Source of the DNA: an uncultured Oscillospiraceae bacterium
GTDB lineage: Bacteria; Bacillota; Clostridia; Oscillospirales; Oscillospiraceae
Direction of reading: 5' to 3'
NCBI GenBank assembly: GCA_947632155.1
Contig: CANROF010000029.1
Coordinates: 1-33,613 of the forward strand
DNA: 33,613 nucleotides
Shown here: positions 217-27,330 of the stretch, piece after piece
Layout: each line of letters opens with the position of its first letter
Position numbering within the stretch: the first letter of the stretch is position 1
The notes under the pieces: generated by a model
Databases searched by the model: none
What the model was told of the DNA's origin: nothing
Seen by the model: the letters and a program-made list of their open reading frames with translations, nothing else
Program-made: the position numbers and the translations under genes

Positions 217-1080
217 ATGAGGATAAAAATCACCGCGGACAGCACCTGTGACCTGTCGCCGGAGCTGGTGGAGAGCCGCGGCATCACCGTTACGCCCTTG
301 AGCGTCACCGTGGCGGGCGGGGTCTACCGGGACGGCGTGGATATAACGCCGGAGGGGCTGTATGAGAAGATCGCCGCCTGCGGCCAGCTCGGCGTCACCT
401 CCGCCGTCAACGTCCAGGACTATCTGGACGTATTCGGGGCGCTTTTGAGGGAGTACGACGCCATTGTGCATTTTACCATCAGCGCCTCCATGTCCTCCTG
501 CTATCAGAACGCCTGCATCGCCGCCCGGGAGCTGGGGAACGTCTACGTGGTGGACAGCAAAAATCTCTCCACCGGCATCGGGCATCTGGTGCTGGACGCC
601 TGCGACATGGCCGCGGCCGGGGTAGAGCCCGGGGAGATCCAGCGCGCGCTGGACGAAAAGCGGGAGCGGCTGGACGTGAGCTTCGTGGTGGACACGCTGG
701 ATTACCTGCGCCGGGGCGGGCGCTGTACGGCCCTGGCGGCCATGGGCGCCAACCTTTTGAAGCTCCACCCGTGCATCTACGTCCGGGACGGCGCCATGGG
801 CGTGGGGAAGAAGTACCGCGGGAAGCTGGCCGCCTGCATCGAGGCGTACATACGCGACAGGCTCGCCGACCCCGGGAGCGTGGACGCCCGCCGGGTGTTC
901 ATCACGGATTCCGGCGTCAGCCAGGAGTGCCGGGACATCGCCGAGCGGACCGTCCGGGAGCTCGTGCCCTTTGAGGAGGTCATCCACACCCGCGCCGGGT
1001 GTACCGTGTCCTCCCACAGTGGCCCCGGGACGCTGGGCATACTTTTCTATCGGAAAAGCCCTGGCGGGCTTTCCCGATAA
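217..1080 (+). CDS. DegV family fatty-acid-binding protein
   Basis: A 287-residue DegV-fold protein. Family members bind a single fatty acid between two domains, and in Firmicutes related FakB proteins present it to the kinase FakA; no fakA is visible here, so the partner is unknown. Visible family features are the start MRIKITADSTCDL, the SMSSCYQNA segment near residue 90, the YLRRGGR motif in the middle and the closing GPGTLGILFY. The ATG follows a GGGGGCGGAG ribosome binding site. After the normal family end the protein carries about nine extra residues (RKSPGGLSR). These and the stop codon are encoded by the hairpin of an intergenic repeat (1048-1115), so the C-terminus appears to have been captured from the repeat. 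Confidence 0.9.
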   Translation: MRIKITADSTCDLSPELVESRGITVTPLSVTVAGGVYRDGVDITPEGLYEKIAACGQLGVTSAVNVQDYLDVFGALLREYDAIVHFTISASMSSCYQNACIAARELGNVYVVDSKNLSTGIGHLVLDACDMAAAGVEPGEIQRALDEKRERLDVSFVVDTLDYLRRGGRCTALAAMGANLLKLHPCIYVRDGAMGVGKKYRGKLAACIEAYIRDRLADPGSVDARRVFITDSGVSQECRDIAERTVRELVPFEEVIHTRAGCTVSSHSGPGTLGILFYRKSPGGLSR

Positions 1081-1115
1081 GGGGAACAAAAATATTGAGA
1101 TTGAGTTTTTTGACA
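1048..1115 (+). repeat. R1 element copy E, internally deleted
   Basis: The first hairpin (arms TATCGGAAAAGCCC and GGGCTTTCCCGATA) and the short GGGGAAC segment match the start of the full R1 copies. The sequence then jumps directly to the R1 end (AAAAATATTGA, then TTTTTTGACA at 1106-1115). Hairpins 2, 3 and most of 4 are missing. It overlaps the 3' end of degV. Confidence 0.8.
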
Positions 1116-3782: not shown

Positions 3783-5696
3783 ATGTCAGTTGAAAAAGAG
3801 GAAAAGGCCGCGAAGGCCGCCTCCCCCGCCCCGGAGGAGCCCAAGCCCGCCAAAAAGCCCGCCCGGACAAAGGCGTCCGGCGAGACGAAAACCGTAAAGG
3901 CCGTAAAGCCGTCCACTCCGGAGGCCAAGCCCGCCGGGGCGAAAGCCGCCGAGGCCAAGGCCGCAAAGCCCGCGGCCTCCCGCAAGCCCAAGGCGGACAA
4001 GCCCGCCGATGCCAAGCCCGCCGCCGGGGACAAGCCCCGGGCCAAGAGGGCCCGCGTCCCCAAGCCCGCGCCGGCGGAGGAAGCGCCGTCGGAGGCCGCC
4101 CCTGTTGAGGCCGTCTCCGCTGAGGAAGCCCCCGTCCGGGAGGCGACCCCCGCCCCGGAAGTCCCTGTTCAGGAGCCCGCCGCCGTCGAGGAGGTCCCCG
4201 TCGAGGAAGCCTCCGCCCCCGGGCCGGAGCCTGTGCCGGAGACGCCCAGGCGCAGCGTGGCGTTCATCGGCTCGGAGTGCTGGCCGTTTGTGAAGACCGG
4301 TGGCCTGGGCGACGTGATGTACGCCCTGCCCCGGGCGCTGGTGAGGCAAAACTGCGACGTGAAGGTCATCCTCCCCCGTTACCGCTGCATCCCCTGGCAG
4401 TACCAGGAGAAGATGGTCTACCGCGGGGCCTTCGGGATGGACCTTACCGCCGACGGCCGGTCTTTTTACGTGGGCATCATGGAGTACGTCTGGGACGGCG
4501 TGGTCTACGATTTTATAGACAACGAGGAATTCTTCAGCGCCGGGAATCCCTACACCAATCTTGTGGACGACATCCCCAAGTACTGCTACTTCTCCAAGGC
4601 GGCCCTGGCGGCGCTGAACTTCCTCGACTGGACCCCCGACGTCATCCACTGTCACGACTGGCAGGCGGCCCTGGTGCCGGTGTACCTCCGGACGCTCTTT
4701 GCCGGGACGAAGCTGGCCCGGTCCAAAGCGGTCCTCACGATACACAACCTGAAATTCCAGGGCGTCTACAACATCCCCACCATCCGCTACTGGTCGGGAC
4801 TGCCAGACTACGTATTCAACAAGGACGCCCTGACGGTGAAGTGGGTGGACGCCAACATGCTCAAGGGGGGCCTGACCTACTCCAACGCCATCACCACGGT
4901 GAGCCCCACCTACGCCTGGGAGATCCAGACCCCGGAGTACGGCGAGGGCCTGGACGCCCACCTTCGCTACCACTCCGGGAAGCTCCGGGGCATCGTCAAC
5001 GGCATCGACTACGGCATGTGGGACCCCCGGACGGACGAAAACCTCCGGGTCAACTACGACATCACCGATTTTTTGGAGCGCAAGCGGCAAAATAAGCTGG
5101 CCCTCCAGGAGGAGCTGGGCCTGGAGCGGGATGAGGGAAAATTTGTCATCGGCCTCATCTCCCGCCTCACCGACCAGAAGGGCCTGGACCTGGTGACGGC
5201 CATCATGCCGCAGCTTTTGGACGGCAACACCCAGGTGGTGATTCTGGGCACCGGCGAGCCGGGCTACGAGGACGCCTTCCGGTATTTTGAGGCCGCCAAC
5301 CGCGGCACGGTCTGCGCCAACATTATGTACGACGAGGGCCGCTCCCACCGCATCTACGCCGGCGCGGACGCGCTGCTGGTGCCCTCGCGCTTTGAGCCCT
5401 GCGGCCTTACGCAGCTCAACGCCATGCGCTACGGCACCGTGCCCGTCGTCCGGGAGACAGGGGGGCTTCGGGACACGGTGGAGCCCTACAACATCTTCGA
5501 CAACACCGGCAACGGCTTCACCTTTGACCGGTACGACCCGTGGCTGCTGCTGGACGCCGTCAACCGCGCCAAGACCCTCTACTTCACCAACCGCTGGTGC
5601 TGGGACGAGATGGTCCGCCGCGACATGGCCAAGGACGTCTCCTGGGACCGCTCCGCCGCCCAGTACAAGGACCTCTACCTGCAGCTTACCTACTGA
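3783..5696 (+). CDS. glgA: Glycogen synthase (GT5) with a low-complexity N-terminal extension
   Basis: A 637-residue protein. From about residue 156 it is a complete GT-B glycogen/starch synthase, which transfers glucose from ADP-glucose to a growing alpha-1,4-glucan. Visible family motifs are the ADP-glucose loop KTGGLGDV (about 171), HCHDWQAA, TIHNLKFQG, VNGIDYGMWDP, ISRLTDQKGLDL and the C-terminal PSRFEPCGLTQLNAM. Residues 1 to about 155 are almost only Ala, Lys, Pro and Glu: first basic (AK-rich), then acidic (EEAPV-like repeats). Normal GlgA is about 480 residues, so this part is an add-on. The ATG at 3783 follows GGAGGT with 5-base spacing; an upstream in-frame ATG at 3735 has no such site. 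No other glg gene lies beside it. Confidence 0.92.
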   Translation: MSVEKEEKAAKAASPAPEEPKPAKKPARTKASGETKTVKAVKPSTPEAKPAGAKAAEAKAAKPAASRKPKADKPADAKPAAGDKPRAKRARVPKPAPAEEAPSEAAPVEAVSAEEAPVREATPAPEVPVQEPAAVEEVPVEEASAPGPEPVPETPRRSVAFIGSECWPFVKTGGLGDVMYALPRALVRQNCDVKVILPRYRCIPWQYQEKMVYRGAFGMDLTADGRSFYVGIMEYVWDGVVYDFIDNEEFFSAGNPYTNLVDDIPKYCYFSKAALAALNFLDWTPDVIHCHDWQAALVPVYLRTLFAGTKLARSKAVLTIHNLKFQGVYNIPTIRYWSGLPDYVFNKDALTVKWVDANMLKGGLTYSNAITTVSPTYAWEIQTPEYGEGLDAHLRYHSGKLRGIVNGIDYGMWDPRTDENLRVNYDITDFLERKRQNKLALQEELGLERDEGKFVIGLISRLTDQKGLDLVTAIMPQLLDGNTQVVILGTGEPGYEDAFRYFEAANRGTVCANIMYDEGRSHRIYAGADALLVPSRFEPCGLTQLNAMRYGTVPVVRETGGLRDTVEPYNIFDNTGNGFTFDRYDPWLLLDAVNRAKTLYFTNRWCWDEMVRRDMAKDVSWDRSAAQYKDLYLQLTY

Positions 5697-5712
5697 CCCC
5701 GCCCGACACACG

Positions 5713-5740
5713 AACGCCTCCCGGTGACCGGGAGGCGTTT
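5713..5740 (+). terminator. Terminator of glgA
   Basis: Perfect 12-bp stem AACGCCTCCCGG/CCGGGAGGCGTT with loop TGA and a short T tract, 17 bases after the glgA stop. An R1 element begins directly behind it. Confidence 0.85.
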
Positions 5741-5744
5741 ATGC

Positions 5745-5941
5745 TGTCGAAAAAGCCCTGGCGGGCTTTTCCGACAGGGGGGACGTGCGGAAAATTTTTC
5801 TGAATTCTGCGGAATTCAGAAAAATTTTCCTGCTGTTTTGCTCCGCGCACGGCCCGTAGGGCCGCACACTCCGCAAAACAAAAGGTATTTTTTCCGACGC
5901 GCATGTCGCCGGAAAAAATATTGAGTTTGAGTTTTTTGACA
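5745..5941 (+). repeat. R1 element copy A (197 bp, four hairpins)
   Basis: Ends TGTCGAAAAA and TTTTTTGACA form a 10-bp terminal inverted repeat with one mismatch. Inside are four hairpins. H1 is 5745-5776. H2 is 5789-5830, with perfect 19-bp arms and loop TGCG. H3 is 5834-5880, closed by TGTTTTGC/GCAAAACA. H4 is 5888-5918, TTTTTTCCG/CGGAAAAAA around a CGCATGTC loop. No meaningful protein is encoded. The flanks TATGC and GCATA extend the pairing beyond the terminal repeat. Confidence 0.85.
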
Positions 5942-5963
5942 CGCATAAGCCCCTGATCCTGCT

Positions 5964-6016
5964 GTACGGGCCGCCGCCCACGGCGGCCCATCTTCGATTC
6001 ACCACCCGGTTACCTT
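5964..6016 (+). repeat. R2 palindromic repeat, single end
   Basis: Perfect 9-bp hairpin GGGCCGCCG/CGGCGGCCC (5968-5989), followed by a CATCTTCGATTCACC segment similar to the copies near 26791 and, in reverse, near 9060. Confidence 0.6.
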
Positions 6017-6024
6017 ATCTCCGC

Positions 6025-6053
6025 TTGAAACGCGGCGGGGGGTCTGGTATAAT
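6025..6053 (+). promoter_or_regulatory. Promoter of the ROK kinase gene
   Basis: TTGAAA (6025-6030), a 17-base spacer and perfect TATAAT (6048-6053). The leader to the GTG start is about 110 bases. Confidence 0.8.
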
Positions 6054-6074
6054 ATCCGCAAAGCGGATATTATA
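6048..6074. promoter_or_regulatory. Perfect 27-bp palindrome over -10 and start site
   Basis: Arms TATAATATCCGC and GCGGATATTATA pair without mismatch around AAA. The left arm contains the -10 box, so a dimeric repressor bound here would block transcription. If transcribed, only its right part would be in the RNA. Confidence 0.65.
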
Positions 6075-6083
6075 TTTGATCAA

Positions 6084-6128
6084 CGCCGTTTTTCTCCCCG
6101 GCTTCGCCGGGAACCGAAAAACATGGCG
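6084..6128 (+). other. Leader hairpin of the ROK kinase mRNA
   Basis: CGCC-GTTTTTC pairs with GAAAAAC-(AT)-GGCG, and inside it CCCGGC-TTC-GCCGGG forms an inner stem. It lies in the 5' leader, 40 bases before the start codon, with no T tract. Its role is unknown. Confidence 0.5.
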
Positions 6129-6168
6129 ACTATACCGCATGAGAAATCTACCACGGGAGGACGGGGAC

Positions 6169-7110
6169 GTGAGATACTGCTATGGCGTGGACCTGGGCGG
6201 GACGGCTGTAAAGATCGGGTTTTTTGACGGTCAGGGGCGGCTTCTGGCCAGGTGGGAGATTCCCACCCGGCGGGAGGACGGCGGGCGGAGCATACCCGCG
6301 GACATAGCCGGCGCCGTTTTGGCGGACATGGCCCGGCGGGGCCTGGAGAAAGGCGGCTGCCTGGGTCTGGGCGTCGGCATCCCGGGGCAGGTGTGGCCCG
6401 ACGGCACGGCGGACGCGGAAAATCTGGGCTGGGAGCGCTTTCCCATCGTCTCCGGGCTCGCGGACCGGACCGGCCTTCGCGTCGCGGCCGACAACGACGC
6501 CAACGCCGCGGCCATGGGGGAGTACCGCAGCGGCGGCGGCCGGGGCTGCCGGAGCGTCCTCTTCGTCACCCTGGGCACCGGCGTGGGCGGGGGGATGATC
6601 ATCGACGGCAGGAGCCTGCGCGGCGCCCACGAGGCCGGCGGCGAGCTGGGCCACATCCAGGTGGAGCCCGGGGAGACGCGGCTGTGCGCCTGCGGGAATC
6701 GCGGGTGCCTGGAGCAGTACGCCTCCGCCTCCGGCTGCGTCCGGCTGGCCCGGGAGGCGCTGGAGGCCACGGAGGAGCCCTCGGTCCTGCGCTCCATGGG
6801 GGAGCTGGACGCCAGGGCCGTCTGGGACGCGGCCAGAGCCGGGGACGGCCCGGCGCTGAGGGCCGCGGACAGATACTGCATGTACCTGGCCCGGGGCCTG
6901 GCCGCGGCGGCCAACACCGTGGACCCGGAGGTCATCGTCATCGGCGGCGGCGTCTCCGGCGCGGGACAGCTCCTTGCCGACATGACCGCGGAGCACTACA
7001 GGCGCCTGGCGTTCACCCCCTGCAAGGCCACGCCCATCGTCATAGCCCGGCTGGGCAACGACGCCGGCATCTACGGCTGCGCCGCCATGGCCCTGGGGCA
7101 ATTCAGTTAA
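6169..7110 (+). CDS. ROK family sugar kinase, probable glucokinase
   Basis: A 313-residue ROK protein of normal kinase length with no N-terminal helix-turn-helix, so an enzyme rather than a ROK repressor. Seen are the ATP phosphate-binding DLGGT (8-12), the catalytic Asp in ADNDANAA (D110), the GTGVGGG loop (137-142) and the ROK zinc site with H162 and the cluster CACGNRGC (C173, C175, C180). Glucose is the most likely substrate; N-acetyl-hexosamines are possible. I chose the GTG at 6169, which follows CGGGAGG by 8 bases; upstream in-frame ATGs would add sequence unlike ROK kinases. The gene with its promoter lies between two same-orientation R1 elements. Confidence 0.88.
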   Translation: MRYCYGVDLGGTAVKIGFFDGQGRLLARWEIPTRREDGGRSIPADIAGAVLADMARRGLEKGGCLGLGVGIPGQVWPDGTADAENLGWERFPIVSGLADRTGLRVAADNDANAAAMGEYRSGGGRGCRSVLFVTLGTGVGGGMIIDGRSLRGAHEAGGELGHIQVEPGETRLCACGNRGCLEQYASASGCVRLAREALEATEEPSVLRSMGELDARAVWDAARAGDGPALRAADRYCMYLARGLAAAANTVDPEVIVIGGGVSGAGQLLADMTAEHYRRLAFTPCKATPIVIARLGNDAGIYGCAAMALGQFS

Positions 7111-7131
7111 GCAAGATCCGAGCCTCATACA

Positions 7132-7397
7132 CAGACTGTCGAAAAAGGCCTTTGGCCTTTTTCCGACAAGGGGAACGTGCGGGAAATTTTTCTGAATTCT
7201 TCGGAATTCAGAAAAATTTCCCTGCTGTTGCTCTGCGCGCGCCCCGTTGGGGCACTACGACTCGCTAAGAGCCGCCGCATAGCGGCGGTTGCTCGCTTGC
7301 ATGGCGCCTGCGGGCGCCAACTTGTGCGACAAAAGGTATTTTTTCCGACGCACATGTCGCCGGAAAAAATATTGATGTGGGGTTTGTCAACAGTCTG
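7132..7397 (+). repeat. R1 element copy B (core 7137-7392, enlarged third hairpin)
   Basis: Same order as copy A: H1 TGTCGAAAAAGGCC, H2 (7181-7222, loop TTCG), a closing TGTTGC/GCGACA H3, then H4 with a CACATGTC loop. H3 carries about 60 extra bases with two further perfect stems (GCCGCCGC/GCGGCGG and GGCGCC/GGCGCC). The outermost bases CAGACTGT and ACAGTCTG pair perfectly, extending the terminal repeat. Confidence 0.8.
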
Positions 7398-7558
7398 ATA
7401 CTAATCCCTGATTAAAAGCTCAAACCGAGCGGCGAGGATTTTTCGCGTCAGACGAGGAAGACTGCGCAGGGAATACTTTCGTATTTCCAAGCAGGCTGAC
7501 GAAGTATGGCGCGAAATAGACCGCCGCGAATTTGAGATTTTGATCAGGGATTAGTATC
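7397..7558. repeat. R3 element: 162-bp inverted-repeat sequence
   Basis: The ends match as an inverted repeat: the first 16 bases GATACTAATCCCTGAT are perfect, and similarity continues with few mismatches through AAAA, CTCAAA and a GC-rich stretch for about 50 bases per arm. The centre holds a small hairpin (GGAATAC-TTTC-GTATTCC-like). It abuts R1 copy B, sharing one base. It has MITE-like form; no coding sequence is evident. Confidence 0.7.
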
Positions 7559-7568
7559 ATATAGCATC

Positions 7569-16566: not shown

Positions 16567-16762
16567 TGTCAAAAAACTCAATTTCAATATTTTTTCCAAG
16601 GACATGCGCCTTGGAAAAAATCCCTTTTGTCGCACAAGCGTGCGCCCTTTGGGCGTGCGCGCAGGGCGACAGCAGGGAAGTTTTCGCTGAATTTCGCAAA
16701 ATTCAGCGAAAATTTCCCGCACGTTCCCCTTGTCGGAAAAGCCCGTCAGGGCTTTTTCGACA
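16567..16762 (-). repeat. R1 element copy C (196 bp, reversed)
   Basis: On the minus strand it matches copies A and B: TGTCGAAAAAGCCC hairpin first, GGGGAACGTGCGGG spacer, H2 with loop TGCG, H3 closed by TGTCGC/GCGACA, H4 TTTTTTCCAAGG/CCTTGGAAAAAA with a CGCATGTC loop, end TTTTTTGACA. It sits between promoter and rpmH, antisense to it. An AACATGTC octamer flanks it on both sides (16554-16561, 16768-16775), possibly by chance. Confidence 0.85.
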
Positions 16763-16864
16763 GGCTGAACATGTCTGCGGAGTTTTTTCCGCGTCCGTCC
16801 GCTACTGCTTCGGGCGCAAGCCCGATGTCGAGTATATCATTTTATTTTATGGAGGTGTAAACGA

Positions 16865-22762: not shown

Positions 22763-22961
22763 TGTCAAAAAACTCAATTTCAATATTTTTTCCAAGGACA
22801 TGTGCCTTGGAAAAAATACCTTTTGTTTTGCGGAGTGTGCGGCCCTCCGGGCCGTGCGCGGAGCAAAACAGCAGGGAAGTTTTCGCTGAATTTCGCAAAA
22901 TTCAGCGAAAATTTCCCGCACGTTCCCCTTGTCGGAAAAGCCCGTCAGGGCTTTTTCGACA
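22763..22961 (-). repeat. R1 element copy D (199 bp, reversed)
   Basis: Nearly identical to copy C in H1, H2 and ends. H3 is closed by TGTTTTGC/GCAAAACA like copy A, and the H4 loop reads CACATGTC like copy B. It lies between two converging genes, 7 bases from the stop of the S24-like gene. Confidence 0.85.
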
Positions 22962-22968
22962 GGCTGTT

Positions 22969-26731: not shown

Positions 26732-26753
26732 AAGCGCGGCGATTCCGAATACC

Positions 26754-27330
26754 CCCAAATCAACGCGAAAACCCCTCAACCCCGCCGTAGGGGCCGATGA
26801 CCACATCGGCCCATCTCCCAATTCACCGCCCATTTACCGTCAAACGCGCAACGTCCCCGTCCCCCGGGTTTTTGCCATGTTCCGTTGAATGGAGGCGGGA
26901 ACAAATCGGCGGGACGGGTCGCCGGGACGGCGACCCCTACAGGAAGATTTTCGGCTGTATTACACCTTGCAATATGCCGCGATTATGTGTCATCCCAAAA
27001 TCAACGTGAAAACCAACCAAACCAGCCGTAGGGGCCGCCGTCCCCGGCGGCCCGCGCCCCGTTCCACCACCAAATCCCGTCAAACGCGCAACGTCCCCGT
27101 CCCCCGGGTTTTTGCCATGTTCCGTTGAATGGAGGCGGGAACAAATCGGCGGGACGGGTCGCCGGGACGGCGACCCCTACAGGAAGATTTTCGGCTGTAT
27201 TACACCTTGCAATATGCCGCGATTATGTGTCATCCCAAAATCAACGTGAAAACCAACCAAACCAGCCGTAGGGGCCGCCGTCCCCGGCGGCCCGCGCCCC
27301 GTTCCGCCACCCAAATCCCGTCAAACGCTC
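26754..27330. repeat. 240-bp tandem repeat built from R2 palindromes
   Basis: Two adjacent 240-bp units (26841-27080 and 27081-27320) are identical over their first 225 bases. A diverged partial unit precedes them from 26754. Each unit contains an inverted pair of hairpins: GTAGGGGCCG-type at 26787, 27027 and 27267, and the reverse type ending CCCCTAC at 26940 and 27180. Each pair thus forms an approximately 154-bp element with GTAGGGG ends. A frame of 79 or 115 residues across it is a by-product of the duplication, not a gene. This fills the ddl-murF gap. Confidence 0.85.

Follow-up and report, generated by a model that had tools for sequence, protein, structure and literature searches.

A high-copy chain of covarying hairpins with IS1182-type ends in an uncultured Oscillospiraceae bacterium

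Which process spreads a chain of hairpins through a bacterial genome, and which one keeps its stems paired whilst their sequences change? The question is raised by R1, an element found several times in a 33,613-nucleotide stretch of DNA (here called the window; it is contig 29 of the 89 that make up a 2.5-Mb genome) of an uncultured, gut-type Oscillospiraceae bacterium. R1 is a high-copy chain of covarying hairpins with ends of the type carried by insertion sequences (ISs) of the IS1182 family; target duplications accompany it, an autonomous IS with matching ends exists in the genus, and relatives of the chain are present in several families. We consider it probable that R1 is a non-autonomous element spread in trans by an IS1182 transposase, that its stems are kept up at the level of DNA, and that its interior has a further function.

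A chain of hairpins in over a hundred copies

In R1, H1 is followed by the linker GGGGAACGTGCGG, H2, CCTGCYGT, H3, ACAAAAGG, H4 and a tail with the end TTTTTTGACA. Copies with an H1 of the TGTCRAAAA type are here called class 1. The window holds the following copies.

5745–5941, forward strand: copy A, full, class 1 (H1 about 5745–5776, linker 5777–5790, H2 about 5789–5830, H3 about 5836–5878, H4 about 5887–5919, tail 5920–5941)
7137–7392, forward strand: copy B, full, class 1, 256 nt; extra hairpin branches enlarge H3
16567–16762, reverse strand: copy C, full, class 1; AAGG-type H4; 8-base duplication
22763–22961, reverse strand: copy D, full, class 1; AAGG-type H4; flanked by convergent genes
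1048–1115, forward strand: deleted copy; H1 and GGGGAAC (the start of the linker) fused to the 3′ tail, H2 to H4 gone

A preliminary description of this DNA had already placed four full copies and a deleted one here and listed differences between their stem sequences, and on both counts it was accurate: a covariance model matches 5742–5921 (+), 7134–7372 (+), 16587–16765 (-) and 22783–22964 (-) with 174–195 bits and finds no further match in the window at E ≤ 1e-10, the deletion reads as described, and the stem differences are present. The linker, however, is less strictly fixed than was claimed, as copy A has GGGGGGACGTGCGGAA and copies B–D have GGGGAACGTGCGGGAA. Neither are the copies restricted to the window, since the linker has 145 matches in the whole genome at up to three mismatches, against six for the reversed pattern. 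Full-length BLAST matches are 83–100% identical (40 scored of 195 candidates), and 103 oriented copies were recovered, of which 91 were fully parsed and 12, though matched by the linker, were dropped as unparsable. The genome carries over a hundred R1 copies. Amongst those parsed, 78 belong to class 1 and 13 have another H1; class 2 denotes the 11 copies with another H1 lying between genes, after removal of the chimeric L020- and L040-. At gathering score, no Rfam 15 family matches the element, whether in the window or in 17 family loci and 8 others, and the E-value mode on 5600–7450 returns 22 sub-threshold matches (best E 0.016), none of them on the element. The H3 insert of copy B is of a type that recurs in L007, L036, L057, L058, L060, L068, L071, L076, L079, L083, L090 and L106, each of which has the extra multi-hairpin insert recognised by the motif GCTAAGAGCCGCC or GCCAAGAGCCGCC; a different large H3 insert is seen in several relatives within the genus.

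Ends, target duplications and an IS1182-family partner

R1 copies with TGTCRAAAAA ends are insertions, as their extended ends and flank duplications show. Beyond TGTC the class-1 ends continue as CAGNN...NNCTG, i.e., CAGNNTGTCRAAAAA, with CAG at the left in 33 and CTG at the right in 55 of the 66 copies used for ends and flanks (the other 12 of the 78 were left out because the end was not located or the flank was too short). Flank-to-flank repeats of 9 nt or more occur in 40 of the 66 (2.3% in shuffled pairings) and repeats of 12 nt or more in 33 (0% in shuffled pairings), the longest reaching 35 nt. In 22 of the 40 duplications both repeat copies lie 3–8 bases off TGTC/GACA, that is, flush or nearly so with CAGNN/NNCTG, and half of the 40 contain a stem arm of at least six, compared to 5.5% when shuffled. 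The duplicated targets include whole terminator-like hairpins and a non-palindromic stretch (L046), as well as, at L061 (own genome, C40), the palindrome TGTTTCACGTGAAACA, which we take to be parS-like. In the window, copy C stands between the two halves of an 8-base duplication, GACATGTT, which adjoin its CAGCC and ACCTG without a gap. With no transposase gene, a length of ~200–256 nt, terminal inverted repeats and target duplications, class-1 R1 has the features of a miniature inverted-repeat transposable element (MITE), the kind of mobile element to which it had been likened beforehand.

The transposase with matching ends that was expected elsewhere does exist in the genus. Scanning the fetched loci for the same ends outside R1 gave a single case, near a contig end, and the final 123 bases of the same contig have matches in 10 genomes out of 34 in the genus, some of them only partial (e.g., G015, G017, G025). 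Five copies show both ends; in these the IS is ~1.5 kb long, has a long transposase frame and CAGNYTGTCRAAAAA ends, and stands between perfect duplications of hairpin targets (31 bp in L344 and L347, 23 bp in L342 and L352, 21 bp in L351). The transposase of L347 is NF033551 IS1182 at 385 bits (cut-off 270), with PF13751 and PF05598 domains. The IS1182-type elements of the own genome, which have the same two domains, were considered as the partner and rejected, because their ends, GGGGCTGTGAAAAAA, differ from those of R1. These GGGGCTGTGAAAAAA-ended ISs, with a terminal hairpin and often at contig ends, are found at L111–L115 and L198, the last being a truncated copy that retains DUF772; at L112 and L115 they lie directly beside an R1 copy.

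The following pathway would account for these insertions. A DDE transposase of the IS1182 family, acting in trans, would recognise the CAGNNTGTCRAAAAA ends of class-1 R1 and move it, with a preference for palindromes, often terminator-like hairpins, as targets. Joining at the 5′ feet of the target hairpin may then leave the whole hairpin duplicated on both sides, a strand chemistry that we propose by analogy with IS1272, for which Wan et al. (2017, PMC5678879) outlined a route whereby the loop becomes duplicated when joining takes place at the 5′ feet. IS1272 of staphylococci has a transposase of the same family as the R1 partner and, like it, takes a stem-loop or inverted repeat rather than a sequence as target; unlike R1, it replaces the stem-loop, and its new insertions are without duplication (PMC5678879). 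R1, for its part, differs from IS1272 in having no transposase and an unrelated structured interior.

Covariation and the upkeep of the stems

The claim of covarying stems, initially made from the few copies of the window, was borne out by an alignment of 60 copies, 29 from genus relatives and 31 from the own genome. RNAalifold finds 41 pairs in it, with double changes in 26; double-change cells number 314 against 76 after shuffling of partners, the covariation score is 0.371 against 0.117, and none of 500 shuffles reaches the observed values. Pairing holds in 97.8% of stem cells, which are counts over related copies rather than independent events, compared to 84.2% with partners shuffled and 43–63% with partners slid by 1–3 columns, and chance pairing is therefore excluded as the cause of the complementarity. 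In the family alignment, whose 29 sequences have a mean column identity of 59%, 19 of 22 pairs have double changes. The loops and the segments between the stems are conserved whilst the stems vary.

Covariation of this kind could come from selection on a folded RNA, which the preliminary description held to be its simplest reading. In a selected sense RNA, G·U pairs should be tolerated and exceed A·C mismatches, and this was seen neither in the own-genome copies nor in the alignments A1 and A4. The 110 own-genome model matches (101 distinct rows) give 4,089 stem cells, 4,028 of them Watson-Crick, the rest being 19 G·U, 21 A·C and 21 of other kinds; A1 has 19 G·U to 31 A·C in 2,459 cells, and the deeper family alignment A4 has four of each in 635. 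Double-changed cells without a route through a single G·U amount to 143 of 309 in A1 and 54 of 101 in A4, although the G·U-route argument is weak on its own. In addition, change in the arms is blockwise, and entire hairpins combine freely from copy to copy, the four combinations of H3 (TTTTGC, CGCCC) with H4 (GACG, AAGG) being represented 16, 18, 10 and 37 times. At one and the same nusB/tsaD-like site, the H3 arms of L279 differ markedly from those of L288. Blockwise change, free assortment of hairpins and the lack of G·U excess suggest that this covariation is unlike ordinary RNA compensation and that the stems are kept at the DNA level. They weaken the case for RNA selection. The conserved inter-stem segments, a tendency to follow a gene on the same strand (41 to 11) and the copies inside operons are compatible with an RNA role.

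The stems of R1 would thus be kept almost perfectly complementary mainly by copying from arm to arm (template switching) together with exchange of whole hairpins between copies, whereas the conserved stretches inside the hairpins and between them would be the mark of a further function. Multibase, apparently simultaneous compensatory changes that restore Watson-Crick pairs through template switching were described by Monttinen and Loytynoja (PMC8794818) for RNA genes, mainly rRNA; in R1, a mobile element, the same process may operate.

Several observations weigh against mobilisation in trans combined with DNA-level upkeep. Copies A, B and D have no recognisable target duplication, and 26 of the 66 class-1 copies have no flank repeat at the 9-nt level. 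The end of the partner IS has no match in the own genome at E ≤ 0.001, so that the partner could have been lost there, have diverged or be missing from the assembly, whilst the IS1182-type elements that are present have another end and insert beside R1; moreover, an IS with matching ends is assigned for class 1 only and not for class 2. As to the stems, the relatedness of the copies counted tempers the covariation figures, and the comparison with 16 tRNAs from the fetched loci (28 G·U and no A·C in 356 cells) is a small control in which only marked pairs were counted, so that its A·C zero is partly by construction. The share of double changes explicable by a single G·U, 54% in A1 and 47% in A4, is near the 61% of instantaneous changes of G·U-compatible type given for rRNA in PMC8794818, and terminator-like stems might avoid G·U for the sake of stability.

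Genomic setting, relatives and rival explanations

The long forms of the element read in the own genome (four of at least 11 matches of R2, a model built from the family alignment; gene names are from Pfam) lie between atpG and atpD (L396), gyrB and gyrA (L394), ilvH and ilvC (L392), and a KDPG-type aldolase and a PfkB kinase (L398). The class-2 R1 of L080 lies between glycogen phosphorylase and a glgC-like gene, and a family relative, L272, between groES and groEL. In eight of the nine loci read, the upstream stop codon touches H1 or falls inside it. Where just one neighbouring gene ends at the element, the element is sense to it in 27 cases against 8 for own class 1 and in 14 against 3 for the family, 41 to 11 in total; this count leaves out copies at which genes end to either side (39 in own class 1, 16 in the family) or at which none does (4 in each set). 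Target preference of the transposase could cause this bias, and the open-reading-frame test is crude. In the codon-based count, class 1 shows a weak tandem bias (++ 19 to -- 10) and only 2 of 78 copies between divergent genes (-+), whilst the up- and downstream genes of own class 2 are ++ in 9 of 11; the gene finder behind this count misses some window genes and served for neighbour strands only, with a stop-based count as check. The likeliest function of the interior, in our view, would be mRNA structure just after the stop codon, because the long forms lie in sense between genes of essential operons.

Differences between occupied and empty sites, which the preliminary description had asked for, are present between species. 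At the junction of nusB and a tsaD-like gene (named after Pfam NusB and TsaD), 30 genus loci comprise full class-2 copies in L279 and L288, deletion derivatives in L282 and L283, and 26 empty sites; the empty junctions mostly have an overlapping ATGA, and ATGA flanks the insert on both sides. Class 2 was at first read as non-mobile, a reading rejected since insertion is evident at this junction. In L279 and L288 the insert parts two genes that overlap or abut in relatives, and visual inspection shows no clear Shine-Dalgarno sequence ahead of the downstream start. Between atpG and atpD, where 29 of 30 loci were readable by eye, the long form is in sense in L399 (own), L401, L411 and L416 and decayed in L413 and L405; R1 with H2 is in sense in L403 and antisense in L404; the family type is antisense in L400 (where the beginning of a sense copy is retained), L402 (a remnant), L409 and L426; L414 has other hairpins, and the remaining 16 have none (the upstream gene differs in L406 and L410). 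Beside the window's ROK gene no R1 motif was found in 29 of 29 genus relatives, with synteny unproven and proteins at most 67% identical, a motif 580 bases from the gene in L330 being a chance coding match. A linker scan of 80 ROK-gene loci from named relatives (best 63% identity) also found none, though the H2-less family form would escape it; the closest named ROK relative, at 63% identity, is from an uncultured Oscillospiraceae bacterium.

Within the genus, the linker occurs at up to two mismatches in 26 of 34 genomes, the one or two matches in each of G001–G005 looking like chance. The R1 model (E ≤ 1e-5) has matches in 71 of the 150 genomes sampled from the family; these are spread over 44 of the 82 genera in the sample, the own genus included. 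The 37 matches read from other genera are without H2 and its linker, mostly have the common motifs GCGCGCAC...GCACACT in H3 and CGACGYACAYGYCG in H4, and mostly carry an extra hairpin H5 and a ACUCUGCGAGGC-like H6 after H4. Flank repeats of at least 15 nt accompany 10 of 36 of them (one was dropped for a missing flank) and none of 347 control pairings. Model R2, under stricter filters and with 11 candidates scored per genome, has matches in 36 of the 247 genomes from the order, which include five families other than the own, and in 2 of 249 of a phylum-wide sample, namely the own genome and another from the same family; the other 247, a negative control, gave no match. Judged by such model matches, R1 belongs to a wider family of hairpin chains present in several families of the order.

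Against this background, R1 might instead be a structured regulatory RNA, intercistronic or in the 3′ untranslated region, that sets an expression ratio or mRNA stability, with selection on the RNA producing the covariation and mobility accounting for spread only. Conserved loops and inter-stem segments amidst variable stems, the sense bias, the ++ setting of own class 2, and the atpG/atpD, gyrB/gyrA, ilvH/ilvC, groES/groEL and phosphorylase/glgC-like sites with H1 at the stop codon all speak for such an RNA. The lack of G·U excess, the many genus species that lack the element at junctions occupied in others (26 of 30 at nusB, 16 of 29 at atpD) and the weak tandem-gene bias of class 1 speak against it, as do the antisense copies at atpG/atpD in L400, L404, L409 and L426; both orientations at that junction also tell against a strict sense-RNA role for the interior in the trans-mobilisation reading. 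On balance we regard the regulatory RNA as possible, yet doubtful as the main cause. It is a good deal less likely that these are ordinary bidirectional terminators gathered by insertion at gene ends, their conservation due to recent amplification. Class 1 does lie at 3′ ends and rarely between divergent genes, and terminator-like hairpins are frequent targets; but the H3 internal-loop and H4-loop motifs are common to different genera at 59% mean column identity, and copies sit inside essential operons in both orientations, for which reasons the terminator-only reading was rejected. As high-copy intergenic palindromes, the copies also resemble repetitive extragenic palindromes and bacterial interspersed mosaic elements (REP/BIME), to which the preliminary description compared them and which would be moved by a Y1 transposase (REP-associated tyrosine transposase, RAYT). 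Such an origin appears very improbable, and for class 1 it is contradicted by terminal inverted repeats, long target duplications and a same-ended IS1182 partner with a DDE enzyme, although no search for a Y1 enzyme was made.

The probable reading, that of an IS1182 passenger with stems kept at the DNA level, brings R1 close to several known elements. Correia/NEMIS, ERIC/IRU, RUP and YPAL are short, non-coding, high-copy elements with terminal inverted repeats and target duplications, whose partner IS lies elsewhere. R1 shares these features with them, but unlike them it has at least four modular hairpins, conserved segments, relatives in other genera and duplications that are often whole hairpins. 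The BOX elements of pneumococci, likened to R1 by description only and belonging to other organisms, are likewise modular stem-loop intergenic repeats. No description of R1 was found in the literature searched, which did not take in the tables of candidates in PMC8040213 (on structured RNAs from human microbiomes), nor is there an Rfam family; bacterial MITEs and small mobile repeats are treated in a review (PMC2229807).

Other repeats and an RNA were noticed in the window and in the loci read. A second palindromic repeat with TGATACTAATCCCTGATTAAAA ends (7396–7559) abuts the 3′ end of copy B; relatives of it were seen in L017, L111 and L198, and the IS of L342 is inserted in a similar repeat. 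At 26753–27328 the window has a 240-bp tandem unit, present 2.4 times, with G+C-rich hairpins. A Gut-1 RNA (Rfam RF01706, 65.3 bits) lies at 1292–1369 of L264, ~130 nt downstream of a family element and on the opposite strand.

R1 brings together a rare combination, namely a transposase that targets hairpins and duplicates them whole, a passenger with blockwise stem replacement but preserved inter-stem segments, and presence between essential genes. More tentatively, and with the odds against it, R1 could represent an undescribed, order-wide class of modular hairpins, at once a passenger that IS1182 transposases take from one hairpin to the next and a domesticated mRNA element after the stop codons of essential operons. 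If so, stems would be renewed wholesale by template switching and hairpin exchange, the segments between them would be kept, and the element would be retained in gyrB/gyrA, atpG/atpD, groES/groEL and ilvH/ilvC. Covariation is usually read as proof of a selected RNA; because it shows no G·U excess, R1 offers a concrete case of palindromes that may be kept at the DNA level instead, and its many copies make such upkeep testable.
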